From the IMG/VR virus record IMGVR_UViG_3300025120_012795, positions 1-21,185 of that record: a stretch of DNA of 21,185 bases; one strand, 5' to 3'. How positions within the stretch are numbered: position 1 is the first letter of the stretch; each line of letters starts with the position of its first letter. This DNA comes from a virus. Made by a program: the position numbers and the translations under genes. Of the stretch, positions 231 through 14,772 are shown piece by piece. Below the pieces are notes generated by a model. That model did no database searches. It worked only from the letters and a program-made list of their open reading frames with translations, and was not told where the DNA came from.

Positions 231-1562
231 TTATTTAAATAAATATTCACTAGTATCAAATAAATATTGTTTATTATCTAAATGATTTTGATTAAAGTCT
301 AATAAATTATTGACTGTTATTTTAAAACTACCTATTTTATATGTACCCTTATAATTATTAGGGTTTGAATTTTTTAAATTATCTAATATAGCATTTGAAT
401 TTGAAATAAAATCTATATTTTCCTTATTATCTCTTTCTTTGGATAAAGTATACATATCAGTTTCTATAATAACATCTAAATCAGGGTTCCAATTAAGTCC
501 TACTGAGATTTTATCTTCAGCATCTTTGCCCATAAATGTTAATCGTAATTTATCCCAATCTTGTTGAGTATATTTCCATCTTTGATTTGTATAATAATGA
601 CTATCATAATTAACTAAATTAACTAAAGCATCTTTAACAGGTTCTTCATTTAATAAGATATTATCAAAATAAGGTTCTATTCCTGCTAATAAACCTAGAT
701 CAGGGGCAGCATTAATATCTACAAATAAATGAGTTTGATATTTAGACTTATATTCATGCCCAAAATAACCCCATTTTCTAATAAATCTTTTTAATTCTTC
801 ACCATCAGCTCTACCTTGCCAACCATTAGTTATTTCTACTTGTTTATCATCATTTTTATACCATCCTTTACCTCTAGATGAAACACAAGTATAATGGTAA
901 ACACTAGCATTCCATGTCTCTAAAGCATCTAACCCACAAGCAGCTAAGCGAATTATAAAATCCGAATCTTCTCTTGAGCATCTAAATCGAGTATCAAAAC
1001 CTCCTAATTTATTAAAATATGTTTCTTTGTATAAACCAAAGGGTGCAAAATGTCCATATATTAATGGTCTATTTTCTTTAGTTAAGTTTTTAGCAAATTC
1101 CATAAATTCATCATATTGGAATTCATCCGGAGTTAAACCAAAACTTTTAGTTATTTTTTCAGGGGAAGCTGGGTGGATAGGAGGTTCTATTCTAGCCATT
1201 GTAATTACTCTATTAGTATTCCCATCTAATGCTTCTAAAAAATATTTATCAAACTCAGGACTAACAACCATATCAGATTGTAAATAACAAACAACATCAT
1301 TTGATGCATTTCCAAATAATATTGAAATATTTTTTTGATATCCTATTCTATGCCCCGTGTTATTTTTATGAATTTTAATATTAGATTTATCTTTTCTATA
1401 TTCTAATAATTTTTCATATGTTTTTTGATTATCAGAATCAATTAATACTAATACCTCATGTTTACTAAACTGAGTATTTGCTACTAAACTATCTAATAGA
1501 CCAATAACATAATCTTTTTCATTGTTGGCTGTTGTTATACAAAAACTAATTGGTTGCATCAT
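231..1562 (-). CDS. GT2-family glycosyltransferase with long C-terminal extension
   Basis: A 443-residue GT-A fold glycosyltransferase, last gene of the sugar operon. The N-terminus (ISFCITTANNEKDY) is a typical GT2 nucleotide-binding start. QSDM at 95-98 sits where GT2 enzymes carry the DXD metal motif, and KLGGFDTRF followed by REDSD (197-201) is the usual acceptor/catalytic-base region, with HYT near 223. The GT2 core ends at about residue 230; the remaining 210 residues match nothing I recognise and may bind the acceptor. Two ATG codons are adjacent at 1562 and 1559 and either could be used. The start overlaps the upstream SDR by 17 bases, implying translational coupling. Position next to the branched-sugar candidate genes suggests it may transfer their product. 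Donor and acceptor are unknown. Confidence 0.88.
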   Translation of the reverse strand: MMQPISFCITTANNEKDYVIGLLDSLVANTQFSKHEVLVLIDSDNQKTYEKLLEYRKDKSNIKIHKNNTGHRIGYQKNISILFGNASNDVVCYLQSDMVVSPEFDKYFLEALDGNTNRVITMARIEPPIHPASPEKITKSFGLTPDEFQYDEFMEFAKNLTKENRPLIYGHFAPFGLYKETYFNKLGGFDTRFRCSREDSDFIIRLAACGLDALETWNASVYHYTCVSSRGKGWYKNDDKQVEITNGWQGRADGEELKRFIRKWGYFGHEYKSKYQTHLFVDINAAPDLGLLAGIEPYFDNILLNEEPVKDALVNLVNYDSHYYTNQRWKYTQQDWDKLRLTFMGKDAEDKISVGLNWNPDLDVIIETDMYTLSKERDNKENIDFISNSNAILDNLKNSNPNNYKGTYKIGSFKITVNNLLDFNQNHLDNKQYLFDTSEYLFK

Positions 1563-2331
1563 ATACTTTATTTATTCCTTGTTTTAATCCTATTAAATCT
1601 AAATTATAATCCTTAAAATTTCCTGTGTAAGGTTTACCTAATTTTTTATTTTCTATTTTAACTTCACAGTGATGGTTATTTCTTGTATTAATATAATCAG
1701 CAATTTCTTTTAGAGTATAACTTTCTCTATAACAAGCATCTATTACTTTAATACTTGGGTTTAATATAATATATTTTATTATAACAACCAAATCATCCAT
1801 ATAAATAAAATCAAATAATTTATTTTGGTGAATAGTCATTGGCTTTCTATTCTTATAATTATTTAAACACGTTTTAATAAATCTAGTACCCCATTCATTT
1901 TCATCAAATACTCCAAATATTCTAATATTATTTAATTTAGAATGAGAATCAATTATATCAGCAATAATAGATTTACTTAATCCATAAGGATCAGATGGCC
2001 AATTTAATTCAGCTCCAGAACCAAGACTAATTAGTTGTCCAAATTTATTAACATTAGCCATTAAATTATAAAACATTTTTATATTATTAGCTAATACATC
2101 ATTATCATCTTCTTTTAATCTACTTCCTCCACAAATAGCTGTGTGGATTATAACATCAAAATAACCATATTTAGATAAAAAATTAGTTGTTTCTTCTCTA
2201 TTAGTTAAATCAAAATCCTCTCTACCAACACCTATATAAAAATTAGGGTAAGTAAAGTCAAATAGTGAATCTAGTTTAGATAATAAACTACTTCCTACAT
2301 ATCCATTTTTACCAGTAATTAATATTCTCAT
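1546..2331 (-). CDS. NAD(P)-dependent sugar epimerase/dehydratase/reductase (extended SDR)
   Basis: A 261-residue extended SDR. The Rossmann glycine motif is GKNGYVG at 7-13. The active-site tyrosine and lysine are in YGLSK (Y116, K120), with S105 in SLGSGAE as the likely third residue. DFDLTN near 39-44 resembles the RmlD/Fcl-type start of the second strand region. At 261 residues it is shorter than most sugar-nucleotide epimerases (about 300-340), closer to RmlD-type reductases. The start codon immediately follows the stop of the aldolase (TAAATG). By position it could be the ketone reductase that finishes a branched sugar after the ThDP enzyme, the role YerF plays after YerE in yersiniose formation. 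That assignment is inference; SDR membership is clear. Confidence 0.85.
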   Translation of the reverse strand: MRILITGKNGYVGSSLLSKLDSLFDFTYPNFYIGVGREDFDLTNREETTNFLSKYGYFDVIIHTAICGGSRLKEDDNDVLANNIKMFYNLMANVNKFGQLISLGSGAELNWPSDPYGLSKSIIADIIDSHSKLNNIRIFGVFDENEWGTRFIKTCLNNYKNRKPMTIHQNKLFDFIYMDDLVVIIKYIILNPSIKVIDACYRESYTLKEIADYINTRNNHHCEVKIENKKLGKPYTGNFKDYNLDLIGLKQGINKVYDATN

Positions 2332-3330
2332 TTATTTTTTAAGTTGTTGTGCTACCTCTAATATTAGATCTTCTTGTCCTGCTACTAATTTTCTATTACC
2401 TAATTCAAATATAAGTGAAGAATATTCAATACCATTTAATTTAGAAGCTTTAATAATTGGTCTTTCAAAACCAGAAAATAATTTATTCAAACCAGTTAAC
2501 ACATTTACTGGGTTAGTAGTTGGGATTATAGGTACTAAATAATCCATTACTTTATCAGCTTCAATAATAACTTGTTTAAAATCTATCCCCATATTAAAAT
2601 TGGATTTTTCTAATACAGGTAATAATACTTCTAAGGGAGCATTACCAGCTCCAGCACCAAATCCCCTAATACAAGCATCTATATACTTAGCGCCATTTTG
2701 AGCTGCTACCAATGAGTTAGATACGGCACACCCTAAGTTATTATGAGCATGAAAACCAATATCAATACTTAAATTTTCAGTTAAAGCTTTAATTCGTTCT
2801 TCAACATCAGAGGGTAAATAAGTACCTGTTGAATCCATTATAATAACAGATTCAGCACCATATTGTTCCATAATTTTAGCATTTTCAACTAATGTTTTAG
2901 TATCAGTTAAAGCAGTCATCATTAATACTCCTAAAGCTGTTACATCTTTATTTTGTAAATATTCTAAATGTGATTTACTTAAAGTTGCTTCAGTACAATG
3001 GGTAGCAATTCTAACTACATTTACACCCATATCAATTGCTGGTTGGATATCTTTATCTACAGTAGCAATACCAGGTATAACATGGACTCCTAGTTTACTA
3101 TTGTTTAAATATTTTTTAGCCGTTTTAATTATTTCTTTATCAGTGTGAGTAGCTTTACCTATTAATAAAGATGAAGCACCTAACCCATTCCCATGTCCTA
3201 CTTCAACAATTGGTATGTTTACTTTTTCTGCAAATTCACAATATTCTTTAATACTTTTTAAGCTAATAGTATGTTTTACACTATGATTTCCATCTCTGAG
3301 AGAAGAATCTGTTATAATAATATTATTCAT
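2332..3330 (-). CDS. mhpE: 4-hydroxy-2-oxovalerate aldolase (MhpE/DmpG/BphI type)
   Basis: A class II, divalent-metal pyruvate aldolase that reversibly joins pyruvate and an aldehyde to give 4-hydroxy-2-oxo acids. The N-terminal SLRDGNH holds the family's catalytic arginine, metal-binding aspartate and catalytic histidine (R12, D13, H16). The other metal ligands are in GFHAHNN (H194, H196). GAGAGNAPLE at 225-234 closes the TIM barrel, and residues from about 265 form the C-terminal communication domain that in DmpG/BphI contacts the dehydrogenase. Its 332 residues are near the usual 340. The gene overlaps the acetaldehyde dehydrogenase by 8 bases (ATGAATAA), as expected for a channelling pair. 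No catabolic genes lie nearby, so the synthetic direction (acetaldehyde plus pyruvate) is more likely here. Confidence 0.93.
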   Translation of the reverse strand: MNNIIITDSSLRDGNHSVKHTISLKSIKEYCEFAEKVNIPIVEVGHGNGLGASSLLIGKATHTDKEIIKTAKKYLNNSKLGVHVIPGIATVDKDIQPAIDMGVNVVRIATHCTEATLSKSHLEYLQNKDVTALGVLMMTALTDTKTLVENAKIMEQYGAESVIIMDSTGTYLPSDVEERIKALTENLSIDIGFHAHNNLGCAVSNSLVAAQNGAKYIDACIRGFGAGAGNAPLEVLLPVLEKSNFNMGIDFKQVIIEADKVMDYLVPIIPTTNPVNVLTGLNKLFSGFERPIIKASKLNGIEYSSLIFELGNRKLVAGQEDLILEVAQQLKK

Positions 3331-4177
3331 CTTTTAAATGTTTTGTTATTTCAATTGCTGCACAATTAATTATATCTAAATTACCAGCATATTCAGGTAA
3401 GTAATCTCCTGATCCTTTTACTTTAATACTTAGTACTAAAATATCATCATTAATAACAGGAGGCATTACTAATTCATAATATGGGATATAAGTTTGTAGT
3501 TTTTTTATCGTTTTATATATATCTTCAACTAGAGGTGAAAAATTAAAATTATCTGCTTTTACAAACATAGTTGTTTGCATATCAACTTGGGGTTCAGCTG
3601 GATTTAGGTTTAATATTACCTTACATTCTTTACAATTTGTAAATTCTTTAATCGCTCTTTCTGTGGTGTTAATATAATTATCAACATTAATTCTAGTAGC
3701 CATTCCCGCACTATCAGAAGCAATTTGTGATACAACTTCAATATAATCTAAATTAGAACAATGTTTTGAAATTACATTTAATAAAGGTGTTGATGCTTGA
3801 CCACCACAAGTAATCATATTAACATTTCCATTATCCTGTATGATTTTAGGATTAATATTAGGTACACATAAATCTCCTACTTTAGCAGGTGTTAAATCTA
3901 TTACTTTAATCCCTTGTTTAGCAAATATTTTAGCATGTTCTTTAGCATCTTTAGCACTAGTACAATCATAAACTACATCACAACATTTAGGGTTATCAAT
4001 AAAATATTGAATGCCTTTATCACTTACAGTAATATTTAGTCCTTGGGCTAACTTAATACCATTAGATTCCATCCTTCTACCTACAAATATTACAGGTGTA
4101 ACAAAATCCGTTTTTCTTAATTTTAATAGTAAATCGGTTCCGATATTACCAGTTCCAATTATTCCTGCTTTTATCAT
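3323..4177 (-). CDS. mhpF: Acylating acetaldehyde dehydrogenase (MhpF/DmpF/BphJ type)
   Basis: Interconverts acetyl-CoA plus NADH with acetaldehyde, CoA and NAD+. The Rossmann motif is GIIGTGNIG near the N-terminus, FVGRR follows the second strand, and the catalytic cysteine is C124 in MITCGGQAS, the family's signature. QIASDSAGMATR and later NPAEPQVDM match the substrate-domain region of the family. At 284 residues it is somewhat shorter than the usual 300-315. It overlaps the ThDP gene by 4 bases upstream (ATGA) and the aldolase by 8 bases downstream. In bacteria this enzyme and the aldolase form a complex that channels acetaldehyde. In this sugar operon it would most simply supply acetaldehyde from acetyl-CoA for the aldolase. 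Confidence 0.93.
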   Translation of the reverse strand: MIKAGIIGTGNIGTDLLLKLRKTDFVTPVIFVGRRMESNGIKLAQGLNITVSDKGIQYFIDNPKCCDVVYDCTSAKDAKEHAKIFAKQGIKVIDLTPAKVGDLCVPNINPKIIQDNGNVNMITCGGQASTPLLNVISKHCSNLDYIEVVSQIASDSAGMATRINVDNYINTTERAIKEFTNCKECKVILNLNPAEPQVDMQTTMFVKADNFNFSPLVEDIYKTIKKLQTYIPYYELVMPPVINDDILVLSIKVKGSGDYLPEYAGNLDIINCAAIEITKHLKDE

Positions 4178-5964
4178 CTTTTAATTTGTTTTGATTTTTT
4201 ACTTATATCTACTATCATCTCATTTTTTAATTCTGTAAATGGTACTAAGGGGGACATTTCTTCTATTGGTGGTGCTAATATATTCCCATCTTCCATTGGT
4301 ACACCTTTTACTTTAGGTAAAAATCCTTGATTTGGATCCATAAATACTTCTAATATAGCTGGTCCATTATGATTTAAAAATTTAGATAATTTAATATCCG
4401 TATTATTCCATTCTTGTAATTTAAAATATTCATAACCTAAAGCAGGAAATAATTTACTAAAATTAGGTAAACCAATACCCGTATTTTTATCTACACTAAC
4501 ATATTTACCGTTAAATAACATTTTTTGTGTATGTTTTATCATTAGATAACCATCATTGTTAAATATAACGACCTTAACGTTTAATCCATTTTCTATAACA
4601 GTATGTAATTCTTGTAAATTCATCATTATACCACCATCACAATTAAGACATAATACATCTTTATTAGGACAAGCCGCTGCAGCACCAACTGCTCCTGCTA
4701 TCCCATAACCCATTTCACCTAAACCCAAAGAAGTAAACATTTTTTGGTCTGATTTAAGTTTGATTGCCTGATGTCCACTTAATAGTGCAGTTCCCATATC
4801 AGTAACTACAATATGATCATCTTTTAAATGATTAGATAATTTATCCATAAATTGATATGAATTAATATAATTATCTTTATGATTATGTTCTTTATCTATC
4901 CAAGGATATCTTTGTTTTTTATCATTACAATAATCTAACCAAGTTTTATTTATAGGATTAATATTTTTAATATTATCTAATAATTGGTCTAAAATAATAC
5001 TAACATTTTCTCTTATATGCACATCAATATGTTCTTTTGGGGCTTGTAATTCATCAATGTCCACACATATTATTTTACCATTACGTACGAATTCATCCCA
5101 GTCATATCCCGTTTGTGGTAAAGCTAATCTACTTCCTAATACAATTAATAAATCACAATTTTGAACTATATAATTAGCTTCCCTTTGACCATATAAACCA
5201 AACCTTCCAAAAAAATTAATATTATCATTTTCTATTAAATCAATCCCAGACCAAGTTAAAGTTGTTGGAAGGTTAGTTGTATTAATAAATTTGTTAAATT
5301 TATCCTTTGAATCCGATAATCTAATTCCATTCCCCCCTAAAACTAATGGGCGTTTTGATTCATTAATAATATTAATTAAAAATTTAGAATAATCTATAAA
5401 ACTAATTGGGTCTTTTATTTCTATATTCCAATCTCTTTTATTTACCATTTTAGATTGGATATTAAATGGAATATCTAACCATGTAGGTCCTTTTCTATTA
5501 TCTAAAGAAATCTTAGTACATTTTTCTAATTCGTCTTGAATATTATTTTCATCCATTAAACAGTGAGAATATTTAGTAACATCTTCTACCATTTTGGTTA
5601 TATTAAACCCTTGTGTACCATACATTCTTAATTTAGAATGTTCTTCAATATGATAAGAAGATTCATTACCTGAAATTATAATACCAGGTATTGAATCCGC
5701 CCAATTACTTACTACACCTGTTACTGCATTAGTTGCTCCTGCTCCTGCTGTTACTATTGCAGCAGATATTTTTCCTGATGCTCTAAAATAGGCTCCAACA
5801 GCCATAACAGCAGCTTGCTCATGGTGTGTATTAATAATTTTAGTATACCCTAATGTATTAATAGAATCAAATATATGAGAATTTGCAGAACCTATAATAC
5901 CAAATACGGTTTTTATTTTTTGTTCTTTTAAAAACTCTGCTATTAAATCACTTACTTTTACCAT
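4174..5964 (-). CDS. Thiamine-diphosphate enzyme, acetolactate-synthase-like (possible YerE-type sugar carboligase)
   Basis: A 596-residue ThDP enzyme with the three-domain layout of acetolactate synthase and relatives. The cofactor-activating glutamate is E49 in HHEQAA, followed by VTAGAGATN (71-79). The central domain contains PLVLGGNGI near 206. The ThDP/Mg motif runs from CDGG (442-445) to NNDGY (469-473). ALS-type enzymes decarboxylate a 2-oxo acid and transfer the acyl carbanion to a carbonyl; YerE does this onto a 4-keto-3,6-dideoxy sugar nucleotide. The neighbours (4,6-dehydratase upstream, acetaldehyde dehydrogenase and 2-oxo-acid aldolase downstream, two 3-dehydratases in the same operon) make a sugar carboligase more likely than branched-chain amino-acid synthesis, and no ALS small subunit is present. 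Substrate specificity cannot be read from sequence; a plain 2-oxo-acid decarboxylase is the main alternative. Confidence 0.85.
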   Translation of the reverse strand: MVKVSDLIAEFLKEQKIKTVFGIIGSANSHIFDSINTLGYTKIINTHHEQAAVMAVGAYFRASGKISAAIVTAGAGATNAVTGVVSNWADSIPGIIISGNESSYHIEEHSKLRMYGTQGFNITKMVEDVTKYSHCLMDENNIQDELEKCTKISLDNRKGPTWLDIPFNIQSKMVNKRDWNIEIKDPISFIDYSKFLINIINESKRPLVLGGNGIRLSDSKDKFNKFINTTNLPTTLTWSGIDLIENDNINFFGRFGLYGQREANYIVQNCDLLIVLGSRLALPQTGYDWDEFVRNGKIICVDIDELQAPKEHIDVHIRENVSIILDQLLDNIKNINPINKTWLDYCNDKKQRYPWIDKEHNHKDNYINSYQFMDKLSNHLKDDHIVVTDMGTALLSGHQAIKLKSDQKMFTSLGLGEMGYGIAGAVGAAAACPNKDVLCLNCDGGIMMNLQELHTVIENGLNVKVVIFNNDGYLMIKHTQKMLFNGKYVSVDKNTGIGLPNFSKLFPALGYEYFKLQEWNNTDIKLSKFLNHNGPAILEVFMDPNQGFLPKVKGVPMEDGNILAPPIEEMSPLVPFTELKNEMIVDISKKSKQIKR

Positions 5965-6944
5965 ATAAAATTATTTTTATAATATTCAATTATTCCAGGT
6001 AATTCTTTATTAAAATCCATTTTGGGTTTCCACCCTAAACTTCTTAGCTTATTATCATTTAAAGCATATCTAACATCTTGTCCTATTCTTGAATACGAAA
6101 AATCTAAAAATTGATTTTTATCTTCATCATAATATGGAAAAGTTGTTTGTAATTCTTTATCTTCACCCTGATATAATGTAATAATTTTATCTACAGTATC
6201 CCAATTACTTTGTTCAAATCCCCCACAGATATTATATATTTCATTTTTAACCTTACTATCAATAATAGTTAATACAGCATTAGCAGTATCTTGAGCATGT
6301 AACCAATTACGAATTGGATCTCCATTATTATGTAAAGGTATTTTTTTACCTAAACCTAGATATTTAACAGATTTAGGTATTAATTTTTCGGTATATTGTC
6401 CTACCCCATAATTATTTGTTGGTCTTAATATAACATAAGGTATATTATATGTTCGACCCCAAGCTGTAATTAACTGATCCGCTGCTGCTTTGGTTGCTGA
6501 GTAGGGATTTGAGGGTTTTAAAATATCTGTTTCAATATGTTCTCCTTCTGTAATATCACCATAAACTTCATCTGTAGAAAAATGTAATAATATAGGTAAT
6601 TTATCTGTTTCTGCTCTATAGTTTCTAATTAATTCTAATAAATTATGTACCCCATTAATATTTGAATGAACGAAATTTTCACTTTTAACTATTGAATTAC
6701 CTACATGAGTTTCAGCTGCTGTGTTTATAATATAATCACATTCATAAAGAAACTCTATATCATTTATGTCAGTTTCTTCAAAAATAAAATTAGGATATCC
6801 TAAAAATTCATCTAATAAATTTGGGTTTGAAGCATAAGTCATTACATCAATTCCTCTTACATGCCATCCCTTTTTTAAACATTCTCTTGTTACATAAGAT
6901 CCTATAAATCCTAAACAACCTGTTACATAAACTACTTTATTCAT
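5958..6944 (-). CDS. rmlB: dTDP-glucose 4,6-dehydratase-type enzyme (RmlB family)
   Basis: A 328-residue extended SDR that converts a hexose nucleotide to the 4-keto-6-deoxy form. The NAD motif is TGCLGFIG at 8-15. The dehydratase triad region STDEVYG supplies T124, D125 and E126, and YSATK supplies Y148 and K152. NNYGVGQYTEKLIPK, GDPIRNWL and IGQDVRYAL match the order of conserved blocks in RmlB, supporting a 4,6-dehydratase rather than a plain epimerase. The nucleotide (dTDP, CDP or UDP) is not certain. It lies between the GT11 gene (1 base gap upstream) and the ThDP gene (7-base overlap downstream), so it may produce the 4-keto acceptor for that enzyme. No RmlA-type nucleotidyltransferase was found in the window. 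Confidence 0.88.
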   Translation of the reverse strand: MNKVVYVTGCLGFIGSYVTRECLKKGWHVRGIDVMTYASNPNLLDEFLGYPNFIFEETDINDIEFLYECDYIINTAAETHVGNSIVKSENFVHSNINGVHNLLELIRNYRAETDKLPILLHFSTDEVYGDITEGEHIETDILKPSNPYSATKAAADQLITAWGRTYNIPYVILRPTNNYGVGQYTEKLIPKSVKYLGLGKKIPLHNNGDPIRNWLHAQDTANAVLTIIDSKVKNEIYNICGGFEQSNWDTVDKIITLYQGEDKELQTTFPYYDEDKNQFLDFSYSRIGQDVRYALNDNKLRSLGWKPKMDFNKELPGIIEYYKNNFIW

Positions 6945-6945
6945 A

Positions 6946-7803
6946 TTAATTATCTATATTTATCCAATTAGAAGGATAATACTTACCATTAATCCAAGAT
7001 GATGGATGTGAAGGTTCTACGTAGTTAGTAGGACATATTATCTTTTTATTTTTATTTTTACTTAAAAAAGCACCCCACCAAGAATAAGAACTATTAGATA
7101 TAATATGATTGTCGCATAAACTTAATAATGCTAAATCTTCTTTTTCGGATGTTGTAAAACTTTGTGCGTCAACTCCTTTAGGTTCTACAAACCATACATT
7201 ATCACCATCTAATACTAATTTAGAATATTCAATATCATTTGAAAATACTAAAAAATTAAAATTAGTAGCAGGCATAAATTGGGATGTTATAGCTTTTAGA
7301 AAATATTCCTGTTTAAGTTCACAAAATGAATGTTGAGGTAATAAATAATCACCTCTTCTCATATGGATACTAACAGTAGGTTTTTTACCTAATTTAGATT
7401 GAATTTTATTAAATTCTTGTTGGGCTATATTTTGTATCTCATCATTATATTTCCAATTTTCAATCTCATCTTTAATATCATTATACCAATAAGTGTATAA
7501 ATCAAATCTACCATTTAAATTATAATTCGATGAGTCTAAACTAAATAGGGTTTCATCATAAGTGGTAGTATGGAAATTAATATTTTTTAACTTAAAATCT
7601 TTAAAAAATTCATCAGGTTTTATAAGTATAGGGATATTTAAAAGTTCAAATACTTTTATTCCAAACCCACGTTTGATCATGGATTCAGAAAATACTATTT
7701 GTTTATTATTTGCCCCAGCAACAGCAGTTAAACTAGCATAGGACTGAAGTTGAGACCCCATTCCACCTGATTCACCTAAGTTTGAAAATGTTATATAACT
7801 CAT
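6946..7803 (-). CDS. GT11-family alpha-1,2-fucosyl (or colitosyl) transferase
   Basis: A 285-residue GT-B enzyme of family GT11, which transfers L-fucose, or related GDP-sugars, usually to the 2-OH of galactose. The N-terminal GGMGSQLQSYAS (13-24) corresponds to the family's GGLGNQ region. HMRRGDY at 147-153 is the diagnostic GDP-sugar binding motif, and ISNSSYSWWGAF (235-246) is the second family signature. It overlaps Gmd by 4 bases, so donor-sugar enzymes and transferase are co-translated. Because ColD and a ColC/Fcl homologue sit just upstream, the donor may be GDP-colitose instead of GDP-fucose; E. coli O55, which has colitose, also uses a GT11 enzyme. The length matches the bacterial family (about 290). 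Confidence 0.9.
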   Translation of the reverse strand: MSYITFSNLGESGGMGSQLQSYASLTAVAGANNKQIVFSESMIKRGFGIKVFELLNIPILIKPDEFFKDFKLKNINFHTTTYDETLFSLDSSNYNLNGRFDLYTYWYNDIKDEIENWKYNDEIQNIAQQEFNKIQSKLGKKPTVSIHMRRGDYLLPQHSFCELKQEYFLKAITSQFMPATNFNFLVFSNDIEYSKLVLDGDNVWFVEPKGVDAQSFTTSEKEDLALLSLCDNHIISNSSYSWWGAFLSKNKNKKIICPTNYVEPSHPSSWINGKYYPSNWINIDN

Positions 7804-8771
7804 TTTAATTCTTTTAACCAGTATTCAATCATATCGTTCATTAAAGATACAAAATTATGTTTAGGTTTCCAACCTAAACCCCTTAGTAAAGTTGAATCTC
7901 CTTTTAGGTCATGTAATTCTTCTGCTCTATAATATTTAGGATCTACTTTAACATAGTCTTTATAATTTAAATCTAATTTATTAAAAACATATTCACATAA
8001 ATCTCTAACACTATGTGATACCCCAGTAGCACAAACATAATCATTTGGTTTATCTTGTTGTAATATTAACCACATAGCTTCAACAAAGTCTTTTGCATGG
8101 CCCCAATCTCTAGTTGCTTCTAAATTCCCTAATGCTAGTTCATTTTTTAAACCATACTTAATTTGTACTGCCGCTTTTACTACTTTATTAGTTACAAAAT
8201 TAGTACCTCGTCTTGGGGATTCATGATTAAATAATATCCCATTTGATATAAACATATCATAAGAATTTCTATAATTTCTACATATATTATACGAGAATAC
8301 TTTGGCACAGCCATAAGGCGATACAGGGTGTAAAGGTGTTGTTTCCCTTTGGTATCCATCGTTATCTATTGAATTACCAAACATTTCAGAAGATGAAGCT
8401 TGATATATTTTAGCATTAGGTTTTGTTAATTTTACGGCTTCTAATAGTTTAAGTGTACCAATTCCTGTTGTTTGTGCCGTATAAATAGGTTGATCGAAAC
8501 TAATTCTAACGTGGGATTGAGCAGCTAAATTATAAATTTCATCAGGTTGACATAACTGTATTACTCTAATAAGTGAAGATAAATCATTTAAATCAGCATA
8601 TTCTAATTTCAACCTAGAAAATAACTCATCAGGTATTCTAGATGTTTGATTTTCAGCAACAGAATTTCTTTTTACTGTACCCCAAACTGAGTATCCTTTT
8701 TTATCTAAAAATTCAGCTAAGTAAGAACCATCTTGACCATTTATACCTGTAATTAATGCTGTTTTATTCAT
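7800..8771 (-). CDS. gmd: GDP-mannose 4,6-dehydratase
   Basis: Converts GDP-D-mannose to GDP-4-keto-6-deoxy-D-mannose, the branch point to fucose, colitose, perosamine and rhamnose. ALITGINGQDGSYLAEFL is the characteristic Gmd N-terminus. NLAAQSHV (81-88), SSSEMFG (126-132) with the catalytic Ser-Glu pair, YGCAK (Y153, K157) and NHESPRRG follow in the expected order, and RDWGHAKDFVEAMW is the family's late motif. At 323 residues it is shorter than E. coli Gmd (373), nearer to viral and compact versions. It starts within the end of the ColD gene through an ATGAATAA junction. GDP-mannose must come from the host or from elsewhere in the genome. Confidence 0.96.
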   Translation of the reverse strand: MNKTALITGINGQDGSYLAEFLDKKGYSVWGTVKRNSVAENQTSRIPDELFSRLKLEYADLNDLSSLIRVIQLCQPDEIYNLAAQSHVRISFDQPIYTAQTTGIGTLKLLEAVKLTKPNAKIYQASSSEMFGNSIDNDGYQRETTPLHPVSPYGCAKVFSYNICRNYRNSYDMFISNGILFNHESPRRGTNFVTNKVVKAAVQIKYGLKNELALGNLEATRDWGHAKDFVEAMWLILQQDKPNDYVCATGVSHSVRDLCEYVFNKLDLNYKDYVKVDPKYYRAEELHDLKGDSTLLRGLGWKPKHNFVSLMNDMIEYWLKELK

Positions 8772-9918
8772 ACTTATTAATTATTGTTGTAATTTGATTA
8801 ATTTCATCTTCAGTTAAATCCTGATGGTTTGGTATGTAAAATCCTATTTTGTTTACTAACTCACAATTAGGTAATAAAGGTATTTCATTTTCATTATACC
8901 ACATAGGTTTGCTAGCCATATTACCAGCAATTAAGGGTCTAACTTCAATATTATTATCTTGTAATTCTTGGGCTATTTTATCTCTATTTATATTTAATAT
9001 AGGAATAGCAAAACTGGAAACAAAATCATTTTCATTTTCTTTTAATTTTAGAATATTATTCTTTATTTTACGTCTATAATGATGGAAATTAACTCTACGT
9101 TTATAAGAATATTCATCTAATTTATCTATAGCTCTTAAACCAATAAAAGCTTGCAAATCAGTTGATCTAACATTTAATCCAGGTACATAAAAATTATATA
9201 ATGAATCAAAATCATTACTATTAAATTCTTTTCTTAATTTAGTTTGAGCATCCTTAGGTAAATCTCTATCCCAACCATGACTTCTCATCATTAAAAGTAA
9301 ATGATATAATTCTTCATCGTCAGTATTTATAAATCCTCCCTCTATAGTAGATAAATGATGACCAAAATACATTGAATAAAATGAAGCTAAACCAAAACTA
9401 CCTAAATATTTATTTTGATTTTTTGATCCCATACTTTCACAAACGTCTTCAAGTAAAATTACATTATATTGTTCACATAATAAAACTATTTCTTCCATAT
9501 TTGGAACTAATCCAAGTGGTGATACTAATATAAAGGTTGATGGGTCATGTTCCTGGAATAGTTTTTCTAAATGATCTAAATCACAAGATAAATCTTCTAA
9601 ATTACAATCACACATATAAGTTTCATAACCTAATAACATAGGAGAACTTACATCAGTAGACCAACTTAATCCAGGTACTATTATTTTATTATTTCTTGTT
9701 TTATTATGATATTTTAAAGCTGCTAAAGTTAATAGTATTGAAGAAGAGCCTGAATTAACAAATATAGAATATTTGGTTCCTATTTTGTTAGCCCATTTTT
9801 GTTCTAATTCTAAGGTTAAAGGACCTTTGGTTAATCTAGGAATTTCATCCTGGGATAACCATTCTATTAGGGCATTAATATCATTCTTATCTATTGTATC
9901 ACTAACTAATTTTATCAT
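8764..9918 (-). CDS. colD: GDP-4-keto-6-deoxy-D-mannose 3-dehydratase (ColD-like)
   Basis: A 384-residue member of the DegT/DnrJ/EryC1 PLP family, close to the 388 of E. coli ColD. The PLP phosphate and ring contacts are seen in FVNSGSSS (53-60) and LLEDVCES (155-162, D158 for the pyridine nitrogen). Where aminotransferases have the Schiff-base lysine, this protein has YFGHH (H187, H188) followed by LSTIEGG. ColD is known for using a histidine (His188 in E. coli) here and for removing the C3 hydroxyl instead of adding an amine. The neighbours fit: Gmd, which makes its substrate, is directly downstream (8-base overlap), and a Fcl/ColC-type enzyme that could act on the product is directly upstream (17-base overlap). 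Confidence 0.9.
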   Translation of the reverse strand: MIKLVSDTIDKNDINALIEWLSQDEIPRLTKGPLTLELEQKWANKIGTKYSIFVNSGSSSILLTLAALKYHNKTRNNKIIVPGLSWSTDVSSPMLLGYETYMCDCNLEDLSCDLDHLEKLFQEHDPSTFILVSPLGLVPNMEEIVLLCEQYNVILLEDVCESMGSKNQNKYLGSFGLASFYSMYFGHHLSTIEGGFINTDDEELYHLLLMMRSHGWDRDLPKDAQTKLRKEFNSNDFDSLYNFYVPGLNVRSTDLQAFIGLRAIDKLDEYSYKRRVNFHHYRRKIKNNILKLKENENDFVSSFAIPILNINRDKIAQELQDNNIEVRPLIAGNMASKPMWYNENEIPLLPNCELVNKIGFYIPNHQDLTEDEINQITTIINKYE

Positions 9919-10792
9919 AAACTTGTTTTAATCCTTCTTTTAAACCTGTAAATGTAAAATCAGGAAATATTTTTAATAATTTTTTATTACTAACATCTTT
10001 TCTAAATTGACCATCTAAATCTGGTCTATCATATATAATTTCATAATCATTTTCTGTAACTTCTAGGGCAATTCTAGCCATTTCATCAATGGAATAATTG
10101 AAATCAGGTGCTACATTAAAATTTTCAGTTATATCATTATCAATAACTAATCTAATTATATTAGCTAAATCACTAGCATACATAAATTGTCTTAAAGGTT
10201 TACCTGTACCCAATAAGTTTAACTTATTATTTTTAGTATTTTTAATTTTATTTAACAAAGCCGTAATAAAATGCATTTTACTTTCATCATGTAGATTGTC
10301 ATAATCACCATATAAATTACAAGGAATTAAATAATTATACTTAGTACCAAATTGTTTATTATAAGCATCAATTTGAACTGCTAAACAACGTTTAGCATAA
10401 CCATAACTAAAATTTGATGGTGGTGGTGGGCCTATAAATAAATCTTCTTCAGTCATTGGGTAATTTTCAACAACACTAGGGTAAATACAAGTACTTAAAA
10501 TACCAATAAATCTTTTGACATCATGATCTTTACATACTTTAACTATATTAGTATTAATTAAAATATTATCATCAAAGTAATCTGCAGGATATTTAATGTT
10601 ATCTTGAATACCACCAACACGAGCAGCTAAATGTACAACAGTATCGGGTTTATATAAAGAAATTAACTCTTTAACTTGGTTAATATTAGTTAAATCACAG
10701 TCCTTACTACTTAAATAAAAGGCATTAGGTAATTTTTCTTGTAAATGTTTACCTACTAAACCCGTTCCACCTGTTACTAAAATTTTACTCAT
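9902..10792 (-). CDS. fcl: GDP-L-fucose synthase family (GMER/Fcl), possibly GDP-colitose synthase (ColC)
   Basis: A 296-residue bifunctional epimerase/reductase of the Fcl type. Counted from the chosen start, it has LVTGGTGLVG near the N-terminus, HLAARVGG (54-61), STCIYP with the conserved cysteine C102, YGYAK (Y130, K134), NLYGDYDN, and GTGKPLRQFMYASD, a near-perfect Fcl signature. An upstream ATG at 10825 would add 11 residues before the Rossmann strand and overlap the previous gene by 41 bases. The ATG at 10792 gives an 8-base ATGAGTAA overlap like other junctions here, so I prefer it. Fcl makes GDP-fucose from Gmd product; its relative ColC makes GDP-colitose from ColD product. The ColD neighbour favours ColC, but sequence alone does not decide. 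Confidence 0.9.
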   Translation of the reverse strand: MSKILVTGGTGLVGKHLQEKLPNAFYLSSKDCDLTNINQVKELISLYKPDTVVHLAARVGGIQDNIKYPADYFDDNILINTNIVKVCKDHDVKRFIGILSTCIYPSVVENYPMTEEDLFIGPPPPSNFSYGYAKRCLAVQIDAYNKQFGTKYNYLIPCNLYGDYDNLHDESKMHFITALLNKIKNTKNNKLNLLGTGKPLRQFMYASDLANIIRLVIDNDITENFNVAPDFNYSIDEMARIALEVTENDYEIIYDRPDLDGQFRKDVSNKKLLKIFPDFTFTGLKEGLKQVYDKIS

Positions 10793-11930
10793 ATTTAAAA
10801 AATTTTTTAATTTTATCACAAACATAATCTACATCATCTAAATCCATACCATGATGCGCACCTAATAAAAATCCATCTTTCATTACTGTGTCTGCATTTT
10901 CAAAATCCTGTAAGTATTCTCTATAAACTGGATGTCTAGTGACATTACCAGCAAATGTAACCCTAGTTTGGATATTATTTTCTTCTAAAAATGTTAATAA
11001 TTCTAATCTACGTTCTGTTTGTAATGGTATTGCTAACCAGTTGGGTTTAATGCTATCGTCTGGGAGTATTATTTCTTTAACATCCTTAAGATTTTCTAAA
11101 TAACGTTCAACGTTATCTCTACGTTTTTGTTTAAATGTTTGAAAACGATCTAATTGTACCAACCCAAATGCAGCACTCATTTCACTACATTTCATATTAT
11201 AACCTAAAACACCATATAAAAATTTATAATCATATGGTAAACCATCTACATTATGAGCAAAACGTTCATCCATATTTTCACTATTGTCTCCAATACGACC
11301 CCAATCTCTATATTGTAATGCTCTTTTAACATGTTTTTCATCATTAAACATCACCATTCCGCCCATTCCACCAGCTGTAATAACATGGGAAGCATAAAAA
11401 CTAGTAGTTGATACATCTGATTCTTCAGTATAAGATACAGTATCTGCTGAATCTTCTATAACGAATATATCTTCTCTACCCATTGCTTCTAAACCTTCTT
11501 TTAATGATTTCCAATCTGGTTTATTCCCTATTAAGTTAGGAACCATAATTGCTTTAGTATCATCAGTAATAGCATCCAAAATAGTTTGAATATCGGGTAC
11601 ATAAGATGTTAAATTAGAATCTATAAAAATGGGGATATATCCTAATTGTATAATAGGAGCTAAAGTAGTAGAAAAAGTTAAAGCAGGGGTAATTATTTTA
11701 CTTCCTTTAGGTAAGTTCAAAGCAGCTAAAGCTAATAAACAAGCTGATGAACCAGAATTAACAAATACTCCAAACTTTTTACCAAATTCTTTAGCAATTT
11801 TTTCCTCAAATTCAACAGAACGAGGACCAAATCCAGCTAACCAACCATCTCTAAGACACTGTTCAACTGCTTTAATTTCTTCTTCACCATAAGCTTCTAA
11901 TCTATTAGGTGCGTACCATACTTTTTTCAT
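10785..11930 (-). CDS. rfbH: RfbH/DdhC-like PLP sugar 3-dehydratase lacking the Fe-S cysteines
   Basis: A 381-residue DegT-family protein. FVNSGSSACLL (56-66) and VIEDSADT (157-164, D160) bind PLP. The active site reads SFYASHVITAGG, with H182 in the lysine position, as in the CDP-4-keto-6-deoxyglucose 3-dehydratases (E1, RfbH/DdhC), which carry SFYPAHHIT. Later blocks also follow that family: YRDWGR, LPYDYK, LGYNMKCSEMSAAFGL, TRVTFAGN and a C-terminal MKDGFLLGAHHG. Known E1 enzymes are about 437 residues and have a cluster of cysteines for [2Fe-2S] just after RDWGR; here that stretch (212-224) has no cysteine and is shortened. It may therefore work without an E3 reductase, like ColD. No lysine means an ordinary aminotransferase is unlikely. 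It overlaps GT9 upstream by 4 bases. Confidence 0.85.
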   Translation of the reverse strand: MKKVWYAPNRLEAYGEEEIKAVEQCLRDGWLAGFGPRSVEFEEKIAKEFGKKFGVFVNSGSSACLLALAALNLPKGSKIITPALTFSTTLAPIIQLGYIPIFIDSNLTSYVPDIQTILDAITDDTKAIMVPNLIGNKPDWKSLKEGLEAMGREDIFVIEDSADTVSYTEESDVSTTSFYASHVITAGGMGGMVMFNDEKHVKRALQYRDWGRIGDNSENMDERFAHNVDGLPYDYKFLYGVLGYNMKCSEMSAAFGLVQLDRFQTFKQKRRDNVERYLENLKDVKEIILPDDSIKPNWLAIPLQTERRLELLTFLEENNIQTRVTFAGNVTRHPVYREYLQDFENADTVMKDGFLLGAHHGMDLDDVDYVCDKIKKFFKYE

Positions 11931-12862
11931 AATGTTTCTATTATTTTATTATACACTTTTTTATAATTAGGGTGACATTCAAATGTTGGTTTATTAGCTA
12001 AACAATTAACTTGTGGGGGCACACCCATAATATCACCCCATTCTTTTATATTATATTTCATGTTACTAGAACAAAATTCGGCACATGAACCTAATACATA
12101 CTCATAATTATATGATTGAGATCCATTTCTCCATGGTGCTCTTAATTTAGGATGTATTGAACTTCCTAACTGTAATATACGAACATCTGTTGTCCCAGCC
12201 AAATGTAAAATACCAGAATCCATAGTAACTACCATTAATGCTTCATTTTTCATCATCCACCTTAGTTCAGCAGGGTCATTATTAGGATCATTAAGTAAAT
12301 TTTTACCTAATTTTATATTAATATCCATTACAGGTTTTTCAGTATTGTAAAAACCAACTTCACTTGAATCTCTCCCAATTGCAACTACAGGTATACCTTT
12401 ATCATTTAGGGAATCAATTAATCCTTGCCATTGTTTTTGATCCCATGTTCTAGTTGCCCAAGTATGAGTTGGGTGGATCATTACATATTTTCCTAAATTT
12501 AAAGGTCTGGGTTTTTCGATGTATATATCAATTTCCATTTCATCAGGGGATAAAGAAAATCCTAAAGATGATGCATGAAATTGTCTAAAATCATAATTTG
12601 AATATCTAAATTCTGTTTTTTGCCCATTTAAATTGTAGTTTTTTCCAACTAAAGGACTAAATGTAGTATACACTTTATATCCTTCAGTAGATGTATCTAA
12701 AGGTAATGCTTCTTTAACTAATGGATGGTTTTCAAATAAAAATGGTTTTGAAGTAAAAATAGTTAAAGTTGATTCATATGCTTCACATAGTTTTCTAAGT
12801 GTAGGTATAGCTGCTAGAGTATCACCTAGTGCCGGAGTATCTATTTTTAATGCTATTTCCAT
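11927..12862 (-). CDS. GT9-family glycosyltransferase (ADP-heptose:LPS heptosyltransferase-like)
   Basis: A 311-residue GT-B enzyme. The N-terminal PALGDTLAAIPTLRKL (with G13, D14) is the GT9 acceptor-side signature, and the C-terminal VVTMDSGILHLAG (211-223) followed by ILQLGSS is the donor-binding signature, with D215 and H220. HPTHTWATRTWDQKQW near 130-145 corresponds to the interdomain motif of heptosyltransferases. A cysteine-rich C-terminal stretch (GSCAEFCSS and a further pair) is less usual for the family. GT9 proteins in cell-surface clusters transfer heptose or other sugars onto core oligosaccharide; the sugar here is unknown. It shares one base with the GT2 gene upstream (TAATG). 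Confidence 0.87.
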   Translation of the reverse strand: MEIALKIDTPALGDTLAAIPTLRKLCEAYESTLTIFTSKPFLFENHPLVKEALPLDTSTEGYKVYTTFSPLVGKNYNLNGQKTEFRYSNYDFRQFHASSLGFSLSPDEMEIDIYIEKPRPLNLGKYVMIHPTHTWATRTWDQKQWQGLIDSLNDKGIPVVAIGRDSSEVGFYNTEKPVMDINIKLGKNLLNDPNNDPAELRWMMKNEALMVVTMDSGILHLAGTTDVRILQLGSSIHPKLRAPWRNGSQSYNYEYVLGSCAEFCSSNMKYNIKEWGDIMGVPPQVNCLANKPTFECHPNYKKVYNKIIETL

Positions 12863-14328: not shown

Positions 14329-14772
14329 TTATTCAGGTAATAATCCTATATAAGATAAAGCATCTATATAGTCACGTTCTTTAAATTGTTCCATGTTTTC
14401 CATGTTCATTTTATACTTTTGCCCTTCTACTTTAGCTTCCTCTGTATCTTCTAATTTTATAGCTTTAACAGCAGCCCACTTCCAATCTTTAGCGTTAGTA
14501 CCATTTGCAAATATCATCCCCTTATCTTCTATATTAATAGTATTAGGAACCCAAATATAATTGGTTTTTGGGTCTTCCCAAGCTAAATCTTTATATAATT
14601 CGGGAAGAGTAGATATTTGTTCATTATAAAAATCACTATTTAAGGTCATTAATGAATTAGTCCAAAACCCACAAGATAAACTTAAATAATTTGTAATTTT
14701 ATCATTTATTTCTGTTTTATAACATAAATCACCTCCTGATTTGGGGCAATCTATTATAGTATCATGATTCAT
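14329..14772 (-). CDS. Conserved-looking phage protein of unknown function
   Basis: A 147-residue acidic protein with no catalytic motif I recognise. Features seen are a Cys pair in DCPKSGGDLCY (C9, C17), SLSCGFWTNSL near 32-42, a tryptophan-rich centre (LAWEDPKTNYIWVPN and NAKDWKWAAVKA), and a charged C-terminal half ending ERDYIDALSYIGLLPE. No signal peptide or membrane helix is visible. I have an impression of similar proteins in T4-like marine phages, but cannot verify it. It is spaced by one base from its neighbours on each side, so it is an integral member of the sugar operon even though it does not look like a sugar enzyme. It could be a virion component or a partner of the glycosyltransferases; I do not assign a function. 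Confidence 0.75.
   Translation of the reverse strand: MNHDTIIDCPKSGGDLCYKTEINDKITNYLSLSCGFWTNSLMTLNSDFYNEQISTLPELYKDLAWEDPKTNYIWVPNTINIEDKGMIFANGTNAKDWKWAAVKAIKLEDTEEAKVEGQKYKMNMENMEQFKERDYIDALSYIGLLPE

Follow-up and report, generated by a model that had tools for sequence, protein, structure and literature searches.

A viral gene cassette that probably directs synthesis of an erwiniose-type ten-carbon branched sugar nucleotide

Gene content of the locus

The viral record IMGVR_UViG_3300025120_012795 was analyzed over 21,185 nt (positions 1 to 21,185 of the record; here referred to as the window), in which four consecutive genes encode a thiamine diphosphate (ThDP)-dependent enzyme, an acylating acetaldehyde dehydrogenase (AcDH), a 4-hydroxy-2-oxovalerate (HOA) aldolase, and a short-chain dehydrogenase/reductase (SDR) (Table 1). 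A preliminary description of this DNA had proposed the same four genes, and each was recovered as an intact open reading frame (ORF) on which family models and catalytic motifs agree. That description had missed the likely acceptor genes, an RmlB-type dehydratase gene directly upstream and a gene for a His-type 3-dehydratase. The cassette is embedded in a longer minus-strand run of sugar genes. Neighboring genes overlap by 7 bp (RmlB-type/ThDP), 4 bp (ThDP/AcDH), 8 bp (AcDH/HOA), and 17 bp (SDR/glycosyltransferase family 2 [GT2]), and the HOA aldolase and SDR genes abut with no overlap.

Table 1. Genes of the cassette and its proposed partners
Product and proposed role	Position	Strand	Diagnostic features
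YerE/JanthE-like ThDP carboligase, 596 aa	4174..5964	-	TPP_enzyme N/M/C; CDG at residues 442-444
Acylating acetaldehyde dehydrogenase (AcDH, DmpF-like), 284 aa	3323..4177	-	AcetDehyd-dimer, TIGR03215, ITCGGQ
4-Hydroxy-2-oxovalerate (HOA) aldolase, DmpG-like, 332 aa	2332..3330	-	TIGR03217, DmpG communication domain, LRDGNH, FHAHNN
Short NAD-dependent epimerase/dehydratase-type SDR, 261 aa; putative branch-ketone reductase (YerF-like role)	1546..2331	-	Epimerase-type, YGLSK
RmlB-type NDP-glucose 4,6-dehydratase, proposed source of 4-keto-6-deoxy acceptor	5958..6944	-	TIGR01181 match, STDEVYG
RfbH/E1-type pyridoxal phosphate (PLP) 3-dehydratase variant, proposed acceptor 3-deoxygenation	10785..11930	-	ASHVIT (His kept), Fe-S cysteines absent
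GT2 glycosyltransferase after cassette, candidate for branched-sugar transfer	231..1562	-	Glycos_transf_2, 48 bits

The AcDH scored 314 bits against its TIGR family model (cut-off, 282 bits), has an intact catalytic cysteine motif, and matched 7z3s (232 bits) and 1nvm_B in the Protein Data Bank (PDB). The HOA aldolase scored 328 bits (cut-off, 286 bits), has both metal-site motifs intact, and matched 8ih7 and 1nvm_A. Both subunits of DmpFG-type complexes (1nvm, 8ih7, and 4lrs) are represented in the window, with their motifs and the DmpG communication domain. Unlike those complexes, which serve aromatic degradation, the window pair is proposed to run toward synthesis, as part of making a sugar. 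The SDR has the YxxxK motif, and homologues of both the SDR and the GT2 come after the cassette in many viral loci.

The ThDP enzyme is of the JanthE type

The best solved relative of the ThDP enzyme by sequence was JanthE from Janthinobacterium sp. HH01 (8rph, 8rpi, and 8rpj), with 550 bits to 8rph versus 249 bits for the next entry, the best acetolactate synthase (ALS). The predicted structure (pLDDT, 85.7) also matched 8rph best (TM score, 0.93; 43% identity), and ALS structures ranked after it at 22 to 29% identity. Both enzymes share a CDG motif. Five of six JanthE active-site residues are identical in the window enzyme (Y268, P293, Y297, H494, and K567), whereas V121 is replaced by threonine. 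In a tree of 126 proteins, with SH-aLRT support from a quick search in which some long branches were flagged, the window enzyme grouped with JanthE-type YerE-like enzymes (99/98). The preliminary description had called the protein ALS/YerE-like, and the tree bears out the YerE side, as the ALS references fell outside and no firm grouping with true ALS enzymes was found.

Unlike JanthE itself, the window enzyme belongs to a clade of 50 viral proteins and one protein from a Flavobacteriaceae metagenome-assembled genome (MAG) (99), which lies inside a larger group containing JanthE and bacterial O-antigen homologues. The nearest bacterial entries, L091 and L122 (L numbers designate the loci compared), have AcDH and HOA genes nearby. 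A second viral group (L152, L154, L157, L159, and L161) is nested among proteobacterial sequences, and thus ThDP capture probably happened at least twice.

ALS family models matched the window enzyme below their cut-offs (best model, 333 versus 738 bits; TIGR00118, 323 versus 538 bits), and no ALS regulatory subunit was found among the window ORFs. A reading of the protein as an acetolactate synthase of amino acid metabolism was rejected on the basis of the tree, the fold, and the gene context. From these comparisons, in which JanthE was the only characterized YerE-like reference, the protein is assigned as a YerE-like carboligase of the JanthE type, closer to JanthE than to ALS. In three Pseudomonas loci (L091, L095, and L101), a second ThDP gene lies between RfbH and the JanthE-type enzyme; its product is ALS-like and groups with 5ahk (P. 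protegens), which may be the PpYerE of a review of these enzymes.

Conservation of the cassette in viral and bacterial loci

Loci for synteny counts were retrieved with ThDP queries only, giving 76 phage-type loci, which include several near-identical contigs and are not all independent, and 65 bacterial loci with enough flanking sequence. ThDP, AcDH, and HOA genes were contiguous in this order in 57 of the phage-type loci, and AcDH and HOA were both nearby in 60 of the bacterial ones. The ThDP, AcDH, and HOA genes of the set proposed in the preliminary description thus occur together in both phages and bacteria. Because the order recurs in so many loci found by ThDP alone, chance association is excluded. 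An RmlB-type dehydratase gene lies immediately upstream of ThDP in 51/76 viral loci. In the two bacterial loci with neighbors scored (L062 and L091), genes for glucose-1-phosphate cytidylyltransferase, CDP-glucose 4,6-dehydratase, and RfbH stand alongside, an assemblage of 4-keto-3,6-dideoxy sugar genes. Bacterial loci were scanned with a motif pattern that matches CDG and GDG variants, and variants outside these may be undersampled. In a sample of 369 Gammaproteobacteria genomes, two more loci combined a CDG enzyme with AcDH and HOA, and other ThDP proteins, of the lipopolysaccharide (LPS) type, were also found. Among isolated phages, all aldolase matches were of low identity (best, 34%, in a record bearing the label Salmonella enterica), and ThDP matches did not exceed 31% identity among the phage and plasmid records listed.

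Genes for clamp-loader proteins and for a phage exonuclease lie at the right end of the window, and the exonuclease is closest to those of Flavobacterium phage immuto (43%) and Microcystis phage Mel-JY01. By these gene assignments the record is a fragment of a T4-like phage. The glycan island of immuto has a similar layout (exonuclease, two glycosyltransferases, a small protein, GT2, variable sugar genes, and a glycosyltransferase), and its annotation shows no ThDP, AcDH, or aldolase gene. Of 13 larger contigs that carry a relative of the ThDP gene, 9 encode Gp23, the T4 major capsid protein, and the ThDP-bearing relatives include several contigs of 128 to 327 kb with the T4 capsid gene. No flippase, polymerase, or ligase gene was found among the window's listed ORFs, which would favor glycosylation of phage components in the cytosol rather than the assembly of LPS.

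A small conserved protein adjoins the glycosyltransferases in the window (14329-14772, minus strand) and has relatives at L144:4136-4591 and L028:977-1429. Its zinc-ribbon-like cysteine pairs are present in the relatives and partly lost in the window copy. Upstream of the ThDP cassette of L169 (positions 4166-5665) lies a pair of near-identical small proteins (217 to 218 aa), which may be virion components and are candidates for glycan attachment.

Donor chemistry and the erwiniose precedent

The structure of erwiniose can be written as that of a 3,6-dideoxyhexose whose C4 carries a 1,3-dihydroxybutyl group, matching a 4-hydroxy-2-oxopentanoate donor. The preliminary description had proposed this donor, and hence a four-carbon branch, for the window enzyme. 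JanthE accepts 4-hydroxy-2-oxovalerate (PMC12188165) and also pyruvate (PMC12247030). ErwE of Pectobacterium atrosepticum reportedly favors 4-hydroxy-2-oxo acids, 4-hydroxy-2-oxopentanoate among them, over pyruvate and forms erwiniose (PMC12247030). Given the JanthE-type grouping and the use of this donor by JanthE and ErwE, the reading with the best support is a branch of four carbons. The chemistry outlined in the preliminary description is that of the known bacterial erwiniose (ErwE) route.

The likeness to ErwE, which rests on the published description of that enzyme rather than on sequence, lies in the joining of a hydroxy-functionalized 2-oxo acid to a 4-keto-3,6-dideoxy sugar nucleotide to give a ten-carbon product. 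In the window, a YerE-like enzyme is encoded next to enzymes for making 4-hydroxy-2-oxopentanoate and together with 4-keto deoxysugar genes, as expected of an erwiniose-type pathway. The ErwE pathway differs in being CDP-linked and in serving a bacterial exopolysaccharide or O-antigen, whereas the window cassette is carried by a phage and is accompanied by a dehydratase of the RmlB type and an E1-like protein that lacks the Fe-S cysteines. Of the CDP-glucose route (RfbF, RfbG, and RfbH), RfbF and RfbG were not seen among the window ORFs. Membership in the erwiniose type is therefore claimed for the chemistry and not for the CDP route.

Genes for the sugar acceptor

The RmlB-type protein scored only 65 bits against the CDP-glucose dehydratase model. 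In the E1-like protein, histidine replaces the PLP lysine, and ASHVIT aligns with PAHHIT in 3bcx. In the 3bb8 chain, lysine occupies the position of the first histidine of that motif. None of the four E1 Fe-S cysteines is present, and the RfbH/E1 family score was 261 bits versus a cut-off of 423 bits. No E3 reductase was seen among the window's listed ORFs. With the histidine kept and the Fe-S cysteines absent, the protein may act in the manner of ColD and need no E3 reductase. Fe-S-free E1/RfbH-like dehydratases were also seen in L142-L150, L172, L023, L151, and L102, and are common to phages, putative algal viruses, and one betaproteobacterial MAG.

Genes for GMD (7800-8771), a ColD-like His-type dehydratase (8764-9918), and an Fcl-like reductase (9902-10825) adjoin on the minus strand of the window (7800-10825), next to a GT11 fucosyltransferase-like gene. 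The ColD-like protein has an FGHHLST motif and scored 200 bits to ColD, and the three predicted enzymes together resemble a GDP-L-colitose-type pathway.

Active-site motif and donor genes

Among full-length ThDP proteins from viral or bacterial loci that have both AcDH and HOA, all those of the JanthE type carry CDG. The non-CDG exceptions in such loci are the second, ALS-like ThDP genes of the three Pseudomonas loci. The motif is GDG in phage loci L028, L039, L046, L160, L167, and L169 and ADG in L158, and the AcDH-HOA pair is absent from these. In all seven, the gene after ThDP begins with closely similar sequence; it was identified as an HpcH/HpaI aldolase in L028, and the bacterial GDG locus L137 has one too. 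The occurrence of GDG enzymes without the AcDH-HOA pair, followed by an HpcH/HpaI-type aldolase, suggests donor-cassette swapping. The association between CDG and the donor pair is suggestive only.

In L028 (positions 9764-12375), an HpcH/HpaI-type aldolase pair and a 4Fe-4S protein stand where AcDH-HOA would sit. Gene starts in L039, L046, L160, L167, and L169 are similar to this set, and L158 has a single similar aldolase-like gene.

Related genes in algal viruses

Five short IMG/VR contigs (L020, L022, L023, L044, and L151), putatively prasinovirus-like, all encode the ThDP enzyme and the aldolase, and four encode AcDH. The aldolase gene is on the strand opposite ThDP, and three of the five have an E1-like gene, whose product is 59 to 64% identical to that of the window and joins the phage clade at 100. 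L023 also encodes a RING-finger protein and a weak dUTPase match. No capsid gene was found on the five contigs, and a search for longer algal virus contigs found none.

In Micromonas virus MpV-1, AcDH and an oxovalerate aldolase were reported as unique among viruses and explained by aldehyde and amino acid metabolism, and a 2026 paper places a ThDP enzyme within a carbohydrate gene region of Ostreococcus viruses. The likeness of MpV-1 to the window is one of enzyme names (AcDH, aldolase, and "acetolactate synthase"), and the literature gives amino acid and aldehyde metabolism, whereas the window is read as a sugar pathway. A sugar pathway appears to fit the algal virus genes better. The cassette is widespread in environmental phage contigs and apparently shared with algal viruses. 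The pathway reading of the preliminary description is supported, with the corrections that the gene set is common in these phage contigs and that AcDH and the oxovalerate aldolase had an earlier report, from MpV-1.

Proposed pathway and alternatives

The gene identities, intact motifs, JanthE-type grouping, and conserved synteny established here computationally point to a cassette that probably makes an erwiniose-type ten-carbon branched sugar nucleotide. Read from the genes, the reactions in this phage, with their nucleotide carrier and exact sugar, would run as follows. AcDH would convert acetyl-CoA to acetaldehyde, and the aldolase would join acetaldehyde to pyruvate, giving 4-hydroxy-2-oxopentanoate; the two proteins probably form a DmpFG-like channeling complex. 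The ThDP enzyme would decarboxylate this product and attach the resulting 3-hydroxybutanoyl carbanion at C4 of a 4-keto-(3,6-di)deoxyhexose nucleotide, supplied by the RmlB-type dehydratase and, probably, the E1-like dehydratase acting in 3-deoxygenation. Reduction of the branch ketone by the SDR would yield a 4-C-(1,3-dihydroxybutyl) sugar, which a cassette-linked glycosyltransferase would attach to phage glycan, most likely on virion proteins.

Several observations weigh against this reading. The window is only a 21-kb fragment, the RmlB-type protein scored 288 bits against TIGR01181, below the dTDP-glucose dehydratase cut-off of 365 bits, and the SDR, which had no PDB sequence match, is without a characterized relative. 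CDG changes only three times independently on the tree, each time with the pair absent (sign test, P = 0.25). L087, L119, and L142-L150 have CDG yet lack the AcDH-HOA pair. A review describes the CDG of JanthE as unusual. ErwE, although it uses 4-hydroxy-2-oxo acids, may therefore have GDG, and CDG would then be a weaker marker of the donor. In L142-L150, the CDG-type ThDP gene lies between an E1-like gene and an SDR gene, and AcDH, aldolase, and RmlB genes were not found in the locus.

The same C4-branch chemistry could act on an acceptor that keeps its 3-hydroxyl. The RmlB product would then be used directly, giving a sugar like that of Rhodopseudomonas palustris, which is C4-branched and 3-oxygenated, and the E1-like protein would serve another sugar. 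C4-branched sugars are reported both with and without the 3-hydroxyl, and the conserved RmlB gene adjoins ThDP while the E1-like gene is ∼5 kb upstream. However, RfbH/E1, RmlB, and ThDP genes are contiguous in L160 and L167, the E1-like gene lies directly upstream of ThDP in L142-L150, and RfbH is present in both bacterial loci checked, which makes this arrangement unlikely. It is distinctly less probable that the acceptor is GDP-4-keto-3,6-dideoxymannose rather than an RmlB-derived sugar. GMD and the ColD-like enzyme do share an operon with the cassette, but the Fcl-like gene completes a standard GDP-colitose-type set, and the GMD/ColD-like pair is absent from most ThDP loci, in which RmlB is nearly constant.

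Since JanthE accepts pyruvate too, the ThDP enzyme might form a two-carbon, yersiniose-type branch while AcDH and the aldolase serve something else. This is very unlikely, because the pair abuts ThDP in the 57 viral loci, where nothing else evidently consumes its product, and because ErwE does not use pyruvate. Auxiliary metabolism, in which an ALS and aldehyde-scavenging enzymes boost host amino acid and carbon metabolism, stands in the prasinovirus literature, and ALS models do match, below cut-off. Yet the JanthE grouping, the missing regulatory subunit, and the surrounding sugar nucleotide enzymes and glycosyltransferases make it extremely improbable.

The likely reading is thus a pathway of a kind known from bacteria, in a new, phage carrier with altered acceptor genes. 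The viral loci are a source of many new ThDP carboligases, with differing predicted donors, for tertiary alcohol synthesis. A broader possibility, which we regard as tentative and somewhat doubtful, is that T4-like phages and large DNA viruses of algae share a pool of branched-sugar cassettes in which the donor module (AcDH-HOA or the HpcH/HpaI set) is swapped in step with alterations of the ThDP active site, so that virus-made sugars of the C10 class may vary as bacterial serotypes do.

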